The notes under the pieces: model-generated
The model's database searches: none
Told to the model about the DNA's origin: nothing
Seen by the model: only the letters and a program-made list of their open reading frames with translations
Source: a virus
DNA: 21,261 bases
Strand: one strand, 5' to 3'
Virus record (IMG/VR): IMGVR_UViG_3300037468_000354
Span: 1-21,261 of that record
Shown: positions 124-9,400 of the stretch, one piece after another
How the letters are laid out: each line of letters starts with the position of its first letter
Position numbering within the stretch: position 1 is the stretch's first letter
Translations under genes and position numbers: made by a program

Positions 124-408
124 TTATTGAGCAGTGTGAGGTGTTTCATTAGCTAATGCTTCGAAAGGATTCTCAGCAGCTAATAATTTCTTTTGTTCAG
201 GAGTTAATAGTTTGTATTGCTCTTCGAGTTGTTCTCTACGTTTAGCGGAGACGAGTTGAGATGAATAGTTGTAGTCAGAAGCATGACGTTCAACAGTTTG
301 TACATAGTGATCAGCAGAGTTAACAATACGGTTAGCCATATTGATAGTTGTATCCACAGCACCAAGTAAGTTGACAAGAGTACCAGCGAGTTTAGTGAAA
401 GGATTCAT
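124..408 (-). CDS. Small phage protein of unknown function (94 aa, minus strand)
   Basis: A 94-residue protein begins at the ATG whose complement is at 406-408. On the minus strand AGGTG lies 6 nt before this ATG, which favours it over an in-frame GTG nine bases upstream (415-417) that would sit almost on top of the ribosome site. The N-terminal part (about residues 5-30, with TKLAGTLVNLLGAV) is mildly hydrophobic and amphipathic; the rest is charged and helix-prone, with an RREQLEEQYKLLTPEQKKLL stretch likely to be coiled coil. I do not recognise a family. It is separated from the plus-strand genes by a long regulatory region and followed by its own terminator-like hairpin, so it is probably an independent, possibly early-expressed unit. 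Confidence 0.7.
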   Translation of the reverse strand: MNPFTKLAGTLVNLLGAVDTTINMANRIVNSADHYVQTVERHASDYNYSSQLVSAKRREQLEEQYKLLTPEQKKLLAAENPFEALANETPHTAQ

Positions 409-553
409 AGTGTGCACCTAATGAATGTATTAAGGGATTATTCCCTGTACAGCCGAAGGCTGAGAGAGTATGGGGGTAGGTAGTTAGGAAATCGTAGAGA
501 GTGAAGGTACCGGGGGGGATATTTCAAGTTTGGGATTTCTGTACCAGTACCCC

Positions 554-777: not shown

Positions 778-827
778 AATTACTATATATTAAGGAGAGC
801 TATAAGTACTTGATTTATAAGGATTTT

Positions 828-923
828 ATGTGCAAATATCGGAGCATATTTGCTCTAATTTCAGTTGATTTAAAGCAAATTAGTGCTAAACTACCCCTGT
901 TTTATCTCATATCTGCTCCGTAA
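828..923 (+). CDS. Possible 31-aa leader ORF ahead of the winged-helix gene
   Basis: An ATG at 828, preceded by AAGGA (819-823) at short spacing, opens a 31-codon frame that ends with TAA at 921-923. The stop lies only a few bases before the GAGG ribosome site of the next gene (939), an arrangement typical of leader peptides and translational coupling. The predicted peptide starts MCKYRSIFALISV and is fairly hydrophobic. The same DNA carries several inverted repeats and a promoter-like sequence at 865-892. If transcription starts there this ORF would not be translated, so the two readings compete. No family is recognised. Confidence 0.25.
   Translation: MCKYRSIFALISVDLKQISAKLPLFYLISAP
852..892 (+). 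promoter_or_regulatory. Candidate promoter with overlapping operator-like dyad
   Basis: TTGATT (865-870) is followed after 16 nt by TAAACT (887-892), with TGC just before it as an extended -10 element, giving a start near 899 and a leader of about 40 nt. A dyad GCTCTAATTT (852-861) / AAATTAGTGC (877-886), matching at 9 of 10 positions with a 15-nt centre, straddles the -35 and abuts the -10. A second inverted repeat, GCAAATAT / ATATTTGC (832-839 and 846-853), lies just upstream. A repressor bound to the dyad would block this promoter. The downstream gene encodes a DNA-binding protein, so autoregulation is a reasonable inference. Confidence 0.5.
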
Positions 924-938
924 ATTGAGGAATTTTTT

Positions 939-1421
939 ATGAAATTATTCGGAAAAGGCGATCTTAAAGTAATTCGATTAAGGCACTCAGGAAGTACCCA
1001 TTACTTCATTACCCCTGGTGAGATGCGTAGTGTTATGGCGAATGTTGGGGAGGTAGGTTACTGCTTGTATAGTTATTACCGTACAGGATTCTTTAACGAA
1101 TCTGAGGACTTCGATGACGATGTGGTAGGTAAGGTAATAGGCTGGGCTGATCATAAGGTTAAACGCTACCGATTGAATTTAGAGAATGCGGGTCTGTTTA
1201 AGAGAGTAAGGCATGGGACTAAACAAGAAGGCATTACCAAGGTGTTAGTAGGAGCAGATACCATTGCATTAGATAATGCTGGCTTACCTCCTGATATTTT
1301 AGATAGTCGCGCGTTTAATAAATTGAAGAAAGCTGCAGGTGTTACCGGTACCGAAGATCTGGTAATGCACGCTCAAGCCATGGCAGATATGTATGCTGCT
1401 AATCCTGAACTATATAAATAA
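939..1421 (+). CDS. Winged-helix DNA-binding protein (160 aa)
   Basis: Starts at ATG 939 with GAGG (927-930) upstream. Residues about 59-90 read as a helix-turn-helix: a helix ending VVGKVIGWADH, then a recognition-helix-like KVKRYRLNLENAGLFKRV, followed by a basic wing (RHGTKQEG) and a beta strand (about 88-105). The order 'turn - KxxRYRxxLExAGL - wing' is common in winged-helix regulators and plasmid/phage replication initiators. The first 50 residues (with a charged LKVIRLRHSG strand) look globular. The C-terminal 40 residues are helical. It stands directly downstream of the dyad at 852-886 and ends 5 nt before a strong hairpin. Likely a transcriptional regulator, possibly of itself and the nearby late genes; a packaging or replication role is not excluded. 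Confidence 0.75.
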   Translation: MKLFGKGDLKVIRLRHSGSTHYFITPGEMRSVMANVGEVGYCLYSYYRTGFFNESEDFDDDVVGKVIGWADHKVKRYRLNLENAGLFKRVRHGTKQEGITKVLVGADTIALDNAGLPPDILDSRAFNKLKKAAGVTGTEDLVMHAQAMADMYAANPELYK

Positions 1422-1456: not shown

Positions 1457-1711
1457 TTAGTCGATCTCTGCACTTACCCCATACAATCGTTGTATTAATA
1501 TCTGTTGGCTACCGGCCATTAGTGATATGGCCCTGTGGTTATTTGCTGCACCCATACCGAATATTTCCAGTTTGTTATTCTCAGTTTCTAATACCAATAC
1601 TCCTGCAGTTACCTTACCGTAGCTGTTGTTTTCTATTTCATCTGCTATTGCTCTGAGTACTCTAGGGATTTCATTAAGTACTGCTGAATCTAGTTTAATA
1701 ATATTAGTCAT
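1457..1711 (-). CDS. Small conserved phage protein of unknown function (84 aa, minus strand)
   Basis: Starts at the ATG complementary to 1709-1711; AGGA lies about 9 nt upstream on the minus strand. The first half (EIPRVLRAIADEIENNSYGKV) predicts an amphipathic helix. The middle forms two strands around a glycine turn (VLVLETENNKLEIFGMGAA) and the last part is a helix (AISLMAGSQQILIQRLYG). I recall small phage proteins of this overall pattern (MTNIIKLP... RVLRAIADEIE...) from other tailed phages, but none with a proven function. It is the only gene on this strand between the regulator and the terminase, with its own terminator-like hairpin and a short divergent promoter region at 1712-1774. 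This looks like an autonomous accessory gene. Confidence 0.75.
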   Translation of the reverse strand: MTNIIKLDSAVLNEIPRVLRAIADEIENNSYGKVTAGVLVLETENNKLEIFGMGAANNHRAISLMAGSQQILIQRLYGVSAEID

Positions 1712-2467: not shown

Positions 2468-2699
2468 TACGTACACATTGACCATGCATTATCGCAATGG
2501 GGATAAGGTTGTTAAGGATGGTTTGGAATTGATTGATCTGTATGACCCAGGTGTTAGATATCCCGGTACCGGTGAAAGACCTGTGTATATTCATCTTAGC
2601 CCGGCCCCGCCAGATACGGTACTTAATGAAGTCATTGGTACCTTAAAATGTAAGTTAATGCCTGGTGTACCTAAAGGTCAGGTGACGTATGGAAATTGA
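2454..2699 (+). CDS. Hypothetical protein between the terminase genes (81 aa)
   Basis: Starts at ATG 2454 inside the end of the preceding gene (14-nt overlap) with AAGGGGA just upstream, and overlaps the start of terL by 11 nt, so translation is probably coupled across all three. The N-terminus predicts beta strands (VIDTYTLTMHYRNGDKVV) followed by a segment rich in Pro and Gly (LYDPGVRYPGTGERPVYIHL). No motif is recognised. The tight sandwich between the two terminase subunits suggests a role in packaging or simply shared expression. Confidence 0.75.
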   Translation: MIVIDTYTLTMHYRNGDKVVKDGLELIDLYDPGVRYPGTGERPVYIHLSPAPPDTVLNEVIGTLKCKLMPGVPKGQVTYGN

Positions 2700-5286
2700 A
2701 CCTAAAGCAGTAGAGGAATACCTTCGTGGAGTTACATACGGTGATGATGCAAATTATGTACCAAGTGACTTTGCTTTAGAATTTATTACCTTCATTAAGT
2801 TGGTGAATGGCAGTGAGGGGGAAGAAAATAAATCCCCGGTACTCCATTACAAAATGTTGGATAATGTTATTGAAGGGGATCGTACTGCCAACATGTGCCA
2901 CCGCGGTAGTGCTAAGGCATTGAGTCTGGATACTCAGGTAATTACCCCTAAAGGTAATGTCAGCATTGCCGATCTCGCTGTGGGAGACACTGTATTTACC
3001 CGTGAAGGTAAGCAGACTACTGTTACCCATAAAAGTGAAATATTTAATAAACCAATGTATGAAATTACGCTAGTAGATGGTCGTAAACTCAAAGTGAGTG
3101 AAGACCATTTGAACATTGTATTAAAACGTAGAACAGGTAGAAACAGTCTTCCAGGTTTTGTAGAAAAAGTATTGACGACTTCCGAGTTGGTGGAGTTAGG
3201 TGTCAGCTATGCCCGCAAAAAAAGTTACCACACTCCCACAGGCAAAGAGATTAAGTGGTATGTACCTACTGCTGATTTAGTTGAATACCCTGCAGTAGAT
3301 TCCCCTATTGACCCTTACACAGTGGGCTGTATTTTAGGGGATGGTTCTATAGATAAGCAGACAGGATTTACACGTATCCATACACATATTGATGATTTGC
3401 CGCATTTTTTCAGTGTTCTTGAAGGGGCGGATACTAATTCAGTTAGGGCAGATTTACGTAGACCTTCTACTCAACGATTTTCATTAAAAGGTTTAGGGCC
3501 TATTGTTAAATCGTTCATAGGCACTGAAAATGTATACAGTAAGCGGGTACCCCAATCCTTATTATGGGGCAGTAGTGAACAAAGGTTAGCTGTATTACGT
3601 GGCTTGATGGATACTGATGGTACCGTCTATGGAACTACATCTTCGTTCTGTAGCACTTCATCTGGTTTAATTAATGATGTACTGTGGTTAGTGCGTTCAT
3701 TAGGTGGAGAAGCAAAAGTAGCAGACGAAACTACATATAAACGTGTTTATATTTACATGGAACAATGCCCTTTCCTGTTACCACGTAAAGCTATTAAATG
3801 GAAACCAAACCGAAAAGGTATGATGGGTATTGATACAATACTTCCAATACCTGCTTGCGAGTCTCAATGTATTGCAGTGGAAGATGCTACTCATTCATTT
3901 TTAGCAGAAAGTTTCTTTGTTACGCACAATACTACCTTGCTTGCTGAGTATCTATTTCTGTATCTGGCTGTATACGGTGAATTGCCTGGTTTCGGTAAGA
4001 TTCCATTGGCAATTTATGTATCGGACTCTATCGAGAACGGTGTAAAAAACTTACGTAAGAACATTGAGCACCGTTGGGAGAAAAGTGATTTTCTGAAAGT
4101 GTATGTTCCGCAAGTACGTTTTACTGATGTGCGTTTAGAGTTTCAGAATAAAGATGGGGCCTTATTCATCGTTAAAATGTATGGTGCAAAGACTGGGGTA
4201 CGTGGTGCTAAAGAGATGGGCAAACGCCCTAACTTGGCAGTATTGGACGATCTTGTGAGCGATGAAGACGCGCGTAGCGCGACCGTAATCGCGAGCATAG
4301 AAGATACTGTGTATAAAGCAGTTACTTATGCATTGCATCCAACCAAGAATAAAATCATTTGGTCAGGTACTCCGTTTAATGCAAAAGATCCTTTGTATAA
4401 AGCAGTGGAGTCTGGGGCCTGGAGAGTAAACGTATTTCCGGTATGTGAAGAATTCCCCTGTGATCGTAAGGATTTCCGGGGCAGTTGGCCTGATCGATTC
4501 ACATACGATTCTGTTAAAGCCGCCTATGATATAGCCCTTAAAGCTGGCAAAATAGACGGATTCAATCAGGAAATGATGCTTCGTATTATGTCGGATGAAG
4601 ATCGTCTTATTACTGATTCAGATATCCAATGGTACTCGCGTACTACGTTACTGCAGAATAAAGGCAAGTTTAATTTCTATGTAACTACTGATTTTGCCAC
4701 CTCTGCTAAAGCTGCAAGCGACTTCTCAGTAATTTCCGTATGGGCATTAAACCATATAGGTCAATGGTTCTGGGTAGACGGTACTTGCCGTAAGCAGACC
4801 ATGGATAAAAATGTAAATGATTTGTTCAGGCTGTGTCAGATGTACAAGCCGCAGTCAGTAGGTGTAGAAATATCTGGCCAACAAGGAGGATTTATACCTT
4901 GGATTAATGAACAGATGATGGCCCGGAATATCTATTTTAACTTGGCTTCAGAAGGTAACAAAGGACAGCCAGGTATTAGGCCCAATACCGACAAGATGAC
5001 CCGGTTCCAGTTGGTAGTTCCATGGTTTAAGACACACCAGATGCATTTTCCTTTGGAGTTAAAGCAGTCACCTGAGATGATTCAGTGTATGGATGAGCTT
5101 ACTAACATGTCTGCTAAAGGGACTAAAAGTAAGCACGATGATTTTTCTGACACTATTTCTATGCTGGCTTTCCTAAATGCATATAAACCAAGTGCCGATA
5201 TGGAAATGCATTACAATGAAGAAACCGATATATGGGAAATGGAGTCTGAAATACTTCCAGACCGAATTTCTTCTTACATAGTTTAA
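2689..5286 (+). CDS. terL: Terminase large subunit with an in-frame intein
   Basis: The 865-residue precursor is the DNA-packaging motor: an N-terminal ATPase and C-terminal RNase H-like nuclease that bind the portal and cut the concatemer. The Walker A segment is split: HRGSAK (71-76), a 338-residue intein (77-414), then TTLLAEY (415 on). Removing the intein restores RGSAKTTL and gives a 527-aa protein, normal for podovirus TerL. Further motifs: Walker B LAVLDD (516-521), coupling motif SGTP (559-562), nuclease acidic residues D668 (TTDFA), E727 (GVEIS) and the KHDDFSD cluster (816-821). The start ATG at 2689 overlaps the previous gene by 11 nt. Unspliced protein would lack a working P-loop, so packaging should depend on protein splicing. 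Confidence 0.95.
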   Translation: MEIEPKAVEEYLRGVTYGDDANYVPSDFALEFITFIKLVNGSEGEENKSPVLHYKMLDNVIEGDRTANMCHRGSAKALSLDTQVITPKGNVSIADLAVGDTVFTREGKQTTVTHKSEIFNKPMYEITLVDGRKLKVSEDHLNIVLKRRTGRNSLPGFVEKVLTTSELVELGVSYARKKSYHTPTGKEIKWYVPTADLVEYPAVDSPIDPYTVGCILGDGSIDKQTGFTRIHTHIDDLPHFFSVLEGADTNSVRADLRRPSTQRFSLKGLGPIVKSFIGTENVYSKRVPQSLLWGSSEQRLAVLRGLMDTDGTVYGTTSSFCSTSSGLINDVLWLVRSLGGEAKVADETTYKRVYIYMEQCPFLLPRKAIKWKPNRKGMMGIDTILPIPACESQCIAVEDATHSFLAESFFVTHNTTLLAEYLFLYLAVYGELPGFGKIPLAIYVSDSIENGVKNLRKNIEHRWEKSDFLKVYVPQVRFTDVRLEFQNKDGALFIVKMYGAKTGVRGAKEMGKRPNLAVLDDLVSDEDARSATVIASIEDTVYKAVTYALHPTKNKIIWSGTPFNAKDPLYKAVESGAWRVNVFPVCEEFPCDRKDFRGSWPDRFTYDSVKAAYDIALKAGKIDGFNQEMMLRIMSDEDRLITDSDIQWYSRTTLLQNKGKFNFYVTTDFATSAKAASDFSVISVWALNHIGQWFWVDGTCRKQTMDKNVNDLFRLCQMYKPQSVGVEISGQQGGFIPWINEQMMARNIYFNLASEGNKGQPGIRPNTDKMTRFQLVVPWFKTHQMHFPLELKQSPEMIQCMDELTNMSAKGTKSKHDDFSDTISMLAFLNAYKPSADMEMHYNEETDIWEMESEILPDRISSYIV
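2917..3930 (+). mobile_element. Intein with LAGLIDADG homing endonuclease inside terL; class 3-like
   Basis: Residues 77-414 of the TerL precursor (338 aa). Block A starts ALSLDTQVITPKG, so position 1 is Ala, not the Cys/Ser nucleophile of class 1. Block B has the conserved His (SEDH, H140). Two LAGLIDADG motifs, VGCILGDGS (212-220) and LRGLMDTDG (303-311), retain the catalytic Asp residues D218 and D310. Block F reads SQCIAVEDATHSF with Cys at the F:4 position (C394). Block G ends VTHN (411-414), followed by Thr as +1. Ala1, F:4 Cys and block-G Thr match class 3 inteins, which use the block-F Cys as first nucleophile. The usual Trp two residues after the block-B His is Asn (N142) here. The element is in frame, with no stops. 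Confidence 0.92.
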
Positions 5287-6404: not shown

Positions 6405-9400
6405 ATGACTGAGATTGTATTAGCAAATAATTCATTAAACATAGATTCAGATGTATCTACTAGTTTTGTAGTAGGTAATGCTGATTATGTTTTCGTTGAT
6501 AGTGAACATCACACGGGAAATTTATTATCTGCTAATGACATTCTCACAGTTGAACAGGCAACATCATTTAGTTTAGTAAATCATACATTTTTAACCTATC
6601 CCTATAGTGATACAGGTATTGAAGATGCTGATTACGATGGCAAAATGTATGTTCGTAAAAATGGTACTTGGTTAGTATTAGATAGAACGTCTTTTTCTAC
6701 GGAATTAGATACGTATTTATATGACCAAATAAATTTATTGTTGAATTTTCGAAACGTAGCGTTAGGAAACTCGCTTGACGTAGAAGCTCGGTTTGTAAGT
6801 ATACGTGACTTACGTGACATGGGGATTATTACCGGCCCTAAGTACATGGAGACTCCTCCGCAACCTGAATACTTCAGTGCTTCTCCTGGTTTAGCAGCTA
6901 TTCAATTATTATGGGAATCTGCACGTAACTATTACACCAATCATGGTAGTACTGAGATCTATCGCAATACAGTAGATGATAGATCCACTGCATTAAAGAT
7001 TTTGGATGTACCCAATACGTACAGTGCATTAGATAGAACTGCAGAATACGGGGTTACTTATTATTATTGGATACGTTTTGTAAGTTCCACTGGAATTACC
7101 GGGCCATTCAATGATGTAAGTGGTATTCCATCTGGTTTGCTGAATAATCCTGATAATGTACTTGAACTTTTATCTGGTGAGATAAGAGAAAGTCAATTAC
7201 ATGCTTCATTGTTGGCACCTATTCAGCTGATTTATAAGCCCGGTGGATTGGCAGATTCGCAAGCTAGCCTTCAAGCAGCCTTTGAACAATCTATTGAAGA
7301 TCGTTCAGCATTGTTTGCTGCCGAAGCTTTAGCAAGACAACAAGCATTGCTACAAGAAGCACAGGACAGAGGTACTGCAATAACTGATGCAGTCACAATC
7401 TTAGAATCAGCCGACGCAAGTTTAGCTTCCCAAATAACCACATTAACTGCAGCAAGTCAGTCTGTATTTGATAGTGCTAAAATGTGGCAATTTGATTTAG
7501 ACGCTGAAGGTTGGACTGACACAATAGGTATTCCTGCTGTATCGGCCAGTAGATTAATTCCTGCATTTAATTCAAATACTTTTATTACTAGTCCTTCATT
7601 TTTATTAGATGGCAGTGTGTTTAATGAAGTGAAGCTTAGAATTAAAAAAATAGGCAGTCCTGTTTGGTTAGGCAAATTAACGTACTTTACTAGTTTAGAT
7701 ACTGGTATTAATCCTGCACATACTTTGACAGTCGATGCTCCTGTATTTACTAGCGGAATTGCTATAGTTAAATGGCCCATGAAAAATAGTTTAGATTGGG
7801 AACTTTCAATTATAGAAAAATTGATTGTACAGTTGGCTTTAATAACTGATGCGAGCAATCATTTTGAATATGATTGGATTGGTATTGGTAGAGGAGTGCC
7901 GGGTGTATCTCTTGCCGCTATTGAACAAGAAGCAGCAACACGAGCAGAAGCAGATTTAGCTGAAGCTGTGTTAAGAAATACTTTGGCAGTACAATTAAGA
8001 GGAAATACTGAAGGTACCAATTTAGGTAGTGTTACTTCTGGTTTGATATTTGAAGAAAAAATTGCACGCGCGGAAGCAGATAGTGCATTGGCTGAATCAT
8101 TTATTCGGATTCAATCTGGATATCGTGCAGAAGCTGTAGACGGAGAGTTAGCAGATGCTTTGGAAGGGTGGACTTCTGCTGCTTCATTGACACAGGAAAT
8201 TAAAACCCGTGCCAATGAAACTACTGCAATTGCTGAACGTACTACTATTCTTGAAGCAGATACGACAGAAGCATTAGCAAGAATTACTGTTGCTGAATCT
8301 ACAATTGTAACCAATCAAAGTGCAGTTGCATCTTCTATTTCTACATTAACTGCCAATATAAATAACAATTCTTCTGCTATTTATAATGAACAAGTTGCTC
8401 GTGCTAATGCTGATACTGCAATTGCTTCACAGATAACGGAGCTTACTGTATCAGTTAATACTAATAACACTGAATTAACTAGTGCCATTCATAATGAAAC
8501 TACAACAAGAGTTGATGAAGTACAGGCTGTTGCTCGTCAGGTCTCTAATTTAAGTACAACAGTGGATGATAACACGGCATTTATTGACATAAATTCAAGG
8601 GCACTTGCTAACATAAAGGGCAACTTAGAAGCCATGTACACCATCAAAGTAGGGATTGCGTCTGATGGCAGGTATTATGGGGCAGGGATGGGTATTGGTA
8701 TTGAAAATACCCCTACAGGTTTACAGTCCCAGGTAATATTTGCGGCAGACAAATTTAGTATCATTCCTTCTGAAGGATTAGGTAATAATGGGATAGCCCC
8801 ATTCATAGTGGCTAATAATCAAACTATAATAAATAGCGCTGTAATAGGTGATGCTACAATTACCACAGCAAAAATTGCTGACGCCAACATTACAAATGCT
8901 AAAATTCAAGATGCTGCCATTAGTTCAGCTAAAATTGTGGATGCAGCTATAACTACAGCCAAGATTCAAGATGCAGCTATCAGTTCAGCTAAAATAGAAA
9001 ATGCTGCCATTACAAGTGCTAAGATTGCGGACGCAAGTATTAACTCAGCTAAAATAGAAAATGCAGCAATTACATCTGCCAAAATAGTGGATGCTGCTGT
9101 CGATACATTAAAAGTTGCAGGTGAAGCAATTACTGTCGTTAGATTTGGTCAAGGTACTTCAGGAAATATTCCAAATAATTCCACGGTAACCGTTTTAACA
9201 ATGCCTTCTATTTCATTACCTACTGGAATATCTGGGGTAGTAATAGATGCGACCTGTTCTGTAAGTACGTCTGGAAATAATTGCAACGTGTTTATAGAAG
9301 TCTATCGTAATGGTGTAATGATAGGCGAACGTCATGCAGGGGCTTTTAATGACATGTCTGTTTGTGTATCAGTTAGAATGTTTGATTCAAGTCCCGGCAC

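Follow-up and report, generated by a model that had tools for sequence, protein, structure and literature searches.

Gene layout and features of the divergent region

The window, a virus record of 21,261 bp, is a fragment of an N4-like phage (Schitoviridae), as judged from the portal, terminase and gp69-like proteins that it encodes. Late genes run rightward from position 1775. No close relatives of the window were detected by protein scans of IMG/VR and GTDB contigs, an exact scan for its 23-mer dyad returned no relative, and distant blastn searches of phage records gave matches only from about 2018 rightward (gp69-like gene, terminase and neighbouring genes). No relative alignable to the region 828-938 at the DNA level was found in these scans. 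This region is part of a divergent intergenic stretch (418-938) between a leftward and a rightward gene, and the following features were located in and around it.

124-417, minus strand: first leftward (early) gene, in the place of N4 gp1 by position only
450-462, minus strand: hairpin of the N4 virion RNA polymerase type, template CAGCC-GAA-GGCTG, loop centre 456, ahead of gene 124-417
800-819, minus strand: conserved leftward element TATAAATCAAGTACTTATAG (AATCAA-N3-CTTA), common to relatives, with a flank that overlaps the 'ribosome site' of the 31-codon frame
828-923, plus strand: 31-codon frame from ATG 828 to TAA 923, with AAGGA at 819-823; probably no gene
832-839 and 846-853, unstranded: dyad GCAAATAT-CGGAGC-ATATTTGC, 8 of 8 pairs, overlapping a compact hairpin at 841-856
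840-849 and 909-920, unstranded: long-range pair CGGAGCATAT and ATATCTGCTCCG, seven contiguous pairs followed by a 2-nt bulge
852-861 and 877-886, unstranded: dyad GCTCTAATTT and AAATTAGTGC, 9 of 10 pairs, overlapping the -35 hexamer and spacer of the candidate promoter
865-892, plus strand: candidate promoter TTGATT-N16-TAAACT, -35 at 865-870, -10 at 887-892, with TG before the -10 (extended -10)
874-887, unstranded: AGCA-AATTAG-TGCT, the best candidate for an operator, within the 865-892 spacer and with the arm-6-arm plan of the Pacinivirus palindromes
939-1421, plus strand: gene for a predicted winged-helix DNA-binding protein of 160 aa (phrog_21584), a likely regulator
1457-1711, minus strand: gene for an 84-aa protein, converging on gene 939-1421

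No sequence similarity was detectable between the product of gene 124-417 and N4 gp1. The hairpin centred on 456 is the sole C-GRA-G hairpin with a stem of at least 4 in the window; when any closing pair was allowed and the stem was at least 5, one further GRA-loop hairpin was present, at 8704, inside a gene. Since the same scan also picked up the hairpins that precede gp1 and gp2 in N4, at 96 and 565, the hairpin at 456 is a good candidate for the early promoter of gene 124-417. By eye, a run of G on the plus strand lies approximately 57 nt upstream of this hairpin, and a run of C is likewise present on the N4 coding strand. Within 828-938, a hairpin promoter of this type was considered and rejected because neither strand has a 3-nt GRA loop with a stem of at least 5.

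Several other structures were observed in the window. A 17-bp perfect inverted repeat at 717-777 (ATATAAAATTTACCCAT ... ATGGGTAAATTTTATAT, with GGC-GAA-GCC near its centre) is far stronger than the dyads of 828-938, and the divergent region also holds two 18-bp direct repeats (554-571 and 609-626; 89% identical, 55 bp apart). The regulator gene and the 84-aa gene that converges on it are separated by a terminator-like hairpin (1426-1443), whose T-rich side is the minus-strand one. The terminase large subunit gene (2689-5286) is split by an intein that has both Hint and LAGLIDADG-type matches, and four IMG/VR loci (L014-L017) align across almost the entire intein-bearing protein.

The predicted regulator family and its upstream DNA in Pacinivirus

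The protein encoded by 939-1421 matched phrog_21584 (E=7.8e-13), for which the PHROGs function label is 'unknown function', and had no match at E<=1 in Pfam or, by sequence profile, in the PDB. An AlphaFold2 model built from a 10-row alignment had a mean pLDDT of 73.4, with ten-residue blocks of residues 31 to 100 ranging from 66 to 96. In this model, residues 26-104 form four helices (26-35, 38-53, 60-67 and 71-83) and two strands (87-93 and 98-104). Foldseek returned no match to the model at E<=0.001. The nearest solved chains were winged-helix proteins, of which the best was TFE-alpha (Z 8.0 over 85 residues), together with DnaD/DnaB N-domains, Rep initiators and MarR/ArsR types. The gene is thus predicted to encode a DNA-binding winged-helix protein, and the model and its nearest chains make the label 'regulator' a reasonable prediction.

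Relatives of this protein occur in Pacinivirus phages of Vibrio and in several IMG/VR schitovirus contigs. A tblastn search with the window's protein found eight phage records, all of Vibrio (Pacinivirus), with 27-32% identity; the homologue of locus L027 matched seven Pacinivirus records and that of L004 matched none of the phage records. With a profile of five members, which included the window's protein, 15 of 101 loci gave clear matches at E below 1e-18; the 15 include duplicates, a split record and the copy in the window. A search with the VCO139 protein added 12VC501 to the family, and no homologue was present in the first 12 kb of N4.

The Pacinivirus sequences are from the Vibrio phages VCO139, JA-1, JSF3, phi 1 and 12VC501, among which three distinguishable sequences were compared upstream of the gene. 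This DNA contains two families of palindromes spaced at 30-31 bp (L010, 173-420; L013, 6807-7055; L112, 2125-2441). The first consists of copies resembling TTACACGATTCGTGTAA, at 173, 204 and 235 in VCO139 and also in phi 1, with 31-bp spacing; of the three copies in 12VC501 only two exceed the repeat threshold, and the middle copy is more diverged. The second family has the form AGACC-N6-GGTCT in VCO139 and JSF3 (exact in two copies, with an altered arm in another and partial in a further one) and GACA-N6-TGTC in 12VC501, where all four copies in the 5531-bp locus lie ahead of the gene, at 2296-2441; it was not found in phi 1. The fourth 12VC501 copy (2428-2441) is located inside the spacer of a sigma70-like promoter, TTGACT-N17-TATTGT, and VCO139 has TTGACA-N17-CATAGT at the corresponding place (both sets of hexamers identified by eye). 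One pair of arm positions (5/12) in the second family is C-G in three of three VCO139 copies and A-T in three of three 12VC501 copies, a compensatory change that is confined to a single column pair and whose score was reached by 26 of 500 shuffles. Every copy of the second family is followed by a T-run, so these copies could be weak terminators rather than operators.

The phi 1 and VCO139 sequences (L008, 1-813; L010, 1-1087) share 95% identity in their first 260 bp and 90% identity at the gene end; between these flanks, in the remaining promoter region and the greater part of the gene, they differ. The two regulator proteins are 39% identical. Such a central cassette is expected if the regulator and its sites change together, and taken together these features are most naturally read, for Pacinivirus, as an operator cassette. 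The Pacinivirus terminal repeat has a length of 1,974 bp according to PMC3670811, and the gene would lie inside it if the repeat runs from the record end. Among the relatives encoded on the leftward strand, no best palindrome was clearly above shuffles, the nearest being that of L004 (5% of 60).

Repeats and candidate promoter ahead of the regulator gene

The earlier note had described three inverted-repeat systems, a promoter-like sequence and a 31-codon frame in 828-938, and all of its letters and coordinates for arms, hexamers and frame were correct on re-checking. The repeats are present as located but each is only marginally above chance. When 828-938 was shuffled 1000 times with dinucleotides preserved, an 8/8 repeat with a gap of at most 20 occurred in 4.5%, a 9/10 repeat in 7.5% and both in 2.1%; when the window was cut into 572 overlapping 111-bp tiles, those of the region included, 21 of them also had both kinds. 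In 13% of 60 shuffles there was a palindrome as good as the best one in the 200 bp ahead of gene 939-1421, and the window contains no repeated palindrome array. The promoter-like pair is likewise there, but its 8 of 12 hexamer matches are at chance level: three such pairs were seen in the region versus 2.35 expected, at least one occurred in 89% of 1000 shuffles, and TTGATT-N16-TAAACT was absent from the matches of a stricter 9/12 scan. Other weak candidates lie upstream of the frame, such as 753-780 with TATAAT.

The element most suggestive of an operator is AGCA-AATTAG-TGCT, which sits in the spacer of the candidate promoter as the fourth copy of 12VC501 does in its own. The stretch 872-887 (AAAGCAAATTAGTGCT) and the VCO139 palindrome agree in 12 of their 16 positions. 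When the palindromes of three relatives were considered, 24 of 1000 shuffles of the region had an equally close match to one of them, as did 5 of the 191 adjoining 111-bp window tiles. This resemblance to the Pacinivirus palindromes supports an operator in a suggestive, not conclusive, way. Both 874-887 and the 852-886 dyad overlap the candidate promoter, itself at chance level, and the dyads are marginal.

Our preferred reading, at a probability of roughly 0.45, is that 828-938 serves as the promoter-operator, of an ordinary kind, for the predicted winged-helix regulator gene where the leftward early genes and the rightward late genes of an N4-like phage meet; this weight is due mainly to the resemblance of 874-887 to the relatives' palindromes in plan and spacer position. 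A host sigma70-type promoter at 865-892 would drive the regulator gene, and a palindrome covering it, most likely 874-887 with the neighbouring dyads, would be bound by the regulator, probably as a dimer. The bound protein would limit its own synthesis and, because the region is divergent, may act on leftward transcription too. The 31-codon frame would have no part in this mechanism. The autorepressed operator proposed in the earlier note is plausible: the predicted winged-helix product and the Pacinivirus palindromes agree with it, but the window's own element is weak by the shuffle count. The proximity to chance of the window's dyads and promoter counts against it, and the analogy with Pacinivirus argues for it more strongly than the window's own DNA does. 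With just 26-32% identity between the proteins, similarity of their operators need not be expected.

The shuffle frequencies of dyads, palindrome, RNA fold and promoter, and the tiles that hold both kinds of repeat, are also what would be seen if repeats of such quality simply arose in an AT-rich intergenic region. There would then be no autoregulation here, and the gene would be driven from elsewhere, for example from 753-780 or from an AT-rich site of the N4 RNAPII kind. We regard this explanation as rather unlikely, given the divergent context, the predicted DNA-binding protein, the Pacinivirus palindromes ahead of the homologous gene and the conserved AATCAA-N3-CTTA box that adjoins the region.

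The leftward element, the 31-codon frame and known systems

The AATCAA-N3-CTTA box, which is not palindromic, was found in the window and in L003, L004, L027, L050, L067, L074, L089, L097, L106 and L109. In the lineages L003/L004/L109, L027/L106, L050 and L089 it lies approximately 113-125 nt upstream of leftward regulator genes; in two contigs (L067 and L074) it precedes a homologue of the N4 RNAPII large subunit by some 70 nt. Across 86 IMG/VR loci oriented by gp69, there were 12 leftward hits (nine distinct, as L027-L029 and L089/L092 include duplicates) and no rightward hits. The pattern was devised after inspection of alignments of regulator upstream regions. A matrix was trained on 11 sites found with this pattern, so that only the window and other non-training hits are informative, and eleven loci duplicating others or the window were skipped before the scan. 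The window's box scored 20.9 with a matrix that excluded it, the best non-training score in 1.67 Mb, although it had first been spotted with the same pattern that supplied the training sites; the next non-training hit was a second L004 copy (17.6). A box hit on the leftward strand of 418-938 occurred in 89 of 20,000 shuffles, and 0.18 hits were expected across the whole window. No clear copy was present in the two stretches of N4 scanned (best score 10.5).

The gene downstream of the box in L067 and L074 was at first considered a homologue of N4 gp70 because these contigs and N4 have the leader CCTATTGCCCAAAGGAA in common; tblastn did not support this, and the gene encodes the RNAPII large subunit. 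The near-identical leader (L118, about 9030-9055, in N4) thus precedes unrelated genes, the RNAPII large subunit and N4 gp70, and may be a common translation-start context.

The obvious candidates for the role of the box are a binding site and a promoter signal for leftward early/middle transcription. The dyad 832-853 could be the stem of a leftward signal with the box at 819-800, rather than a regulator operator, in which case the region would chiefly be a control element for the leftward direction, such as an early/middle promoter. The occurrence of the box ahead of both regulator and RNAPII large-subunit genes, on the leftward strand only (12 versus 0), and the window's top non-training score are consistent with this, and stem-like repeats adjoin the box in L004 (AGGGGTTT/AAACCCCT) and L027 (AAAGGG/CCCTTT), some relatives also having a stem-loop just upstream of it. 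However, stem sequence, stem length and distance to the box differ between lineages, and the L027 stem is broken in L106. The window's regulator gene lies on the strand opposite to the box, and Pacinivirus, L024 and L046 have no clear copy. We consider this explanation doubtful. In a further reading, the box would be a strand-specific schitovirus control signal (a signal of middle, RNAPII transcription or a target of the regulator), and the dyads, placed between this leftward signal and the regulator's rightward promoter, would form part of a two-way switch between early/middle genes and the regulator; this is improbable on our assessment. The box was also considered as a possible marker of the physical genome end; its distance to the hairpin promoters varies.

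The earlier note's other proposal, attenuation by way of a 31-residue leader peptide and RNA folds that exclude one another, is very improbable and is rejected on present evidence. The spacing of AAGGA and ATG is suitable, the stop codon comes right before the ribosome site of the regulator gene (GAGG at 927-930, ahead of ATG 939), and the repeat arms do have bases in common. However, the frame's coding score (-0.107 per codon) is below that of every gene block, the lowest in-frame 96-nt block of the 17 window genes scoring -0.073, and no similar small frame preceded by a ribosome site was found ahead of the regulator gene in 12 relatives. A 31-codon ATG frame arose in 40% of 2000 shuffles of 421-938 when no ribosome site was required and in 3% when a 5-mer site was. 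Moreover, the box flank (TTGATTTATAAGGATTTT read rightward) resembles that of L106 and L027 (AGGATT), and this offers another explanation of the 'ribosome site'. The frame, correctly placed as it was, is probably not a gene. RNA folding of 825-945 was not significant (z=-1.45; 15 of 200 shuffles folded equally well), and terminator-like hits barely exceeded expectation, with three in 1401 bases versus 0.8 expected and a single one, 841-856, in the region. Rfam gave one sub-threshold hit in 400-1800 (16.3 bits, with a gathering score of 440).

The position of the promoter also bears on this proposal. RNA from 865-892 would begin near 899, so the start of the frame at 828 and the left arms would be untranscribed; neither leader-peptide attenuation nor RNA switching would then arise from that promoter, and the dyads would be left with a role at the DNA level only. 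As the proposed promoter falls within the frame, the operator and attenuator ideas could both hold only if the region had a second promoter.

As such, an operator region of this type would be an ordinary kind of switch. Its analysis points to a family, probably of regulators, in N4-like phages that is without a function label in PHROGs and for which the Pacinivirus arrays provide an easy binding test. The more interesting by-product is a strand-specific DNA signal near early/middle genes of N4-like phages. The protein that opens N4 middle promoters is described as unknown in PMC4496689, and a conserved signal ahead of both an RNAPII gene and a DNA-binding protein gene would make this question testable. 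No description of the box, the regulator family or the Pacinivirus array was found in the available parts of the literature searched, which included PMC4496689, PMC3670811 and PMC3715699.

When compared with known systems, the window resembles those with N4 virion RNA polymerase hairpin promoters in being from a schitovirus and in its hairpin at 456, and differs in that no such hairpin lies within 828-938. Leader-peptide attenuators combine a short frame with overlapping arms. Both are present here, whereas a promoter inside the frame and the lack of a coding signal and of a convincing terminator set the region apart. Autoregulated repressor/operator regions are of a general kind among phages, and the window is like them in having a gene for a predicted DNA-binding protein directly 3' of dyads, a divergent intergenic location and dyads that overlap a sigma70-like promoter, here a candidate; it is unlike them in having weak dyads only, without a repeated array. 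Pacinivirus differs from the window in its arrays of at least three copies at 30-31 bp, its stronger -35 hexamers and the location of the homologous gene among leftward genes. The two are alike in the homologous gene itself, in its strand relative to the late genes and in the arm-6-arm palindrome in or near a TTGAC-type promoter, which in the window is a candidate one.
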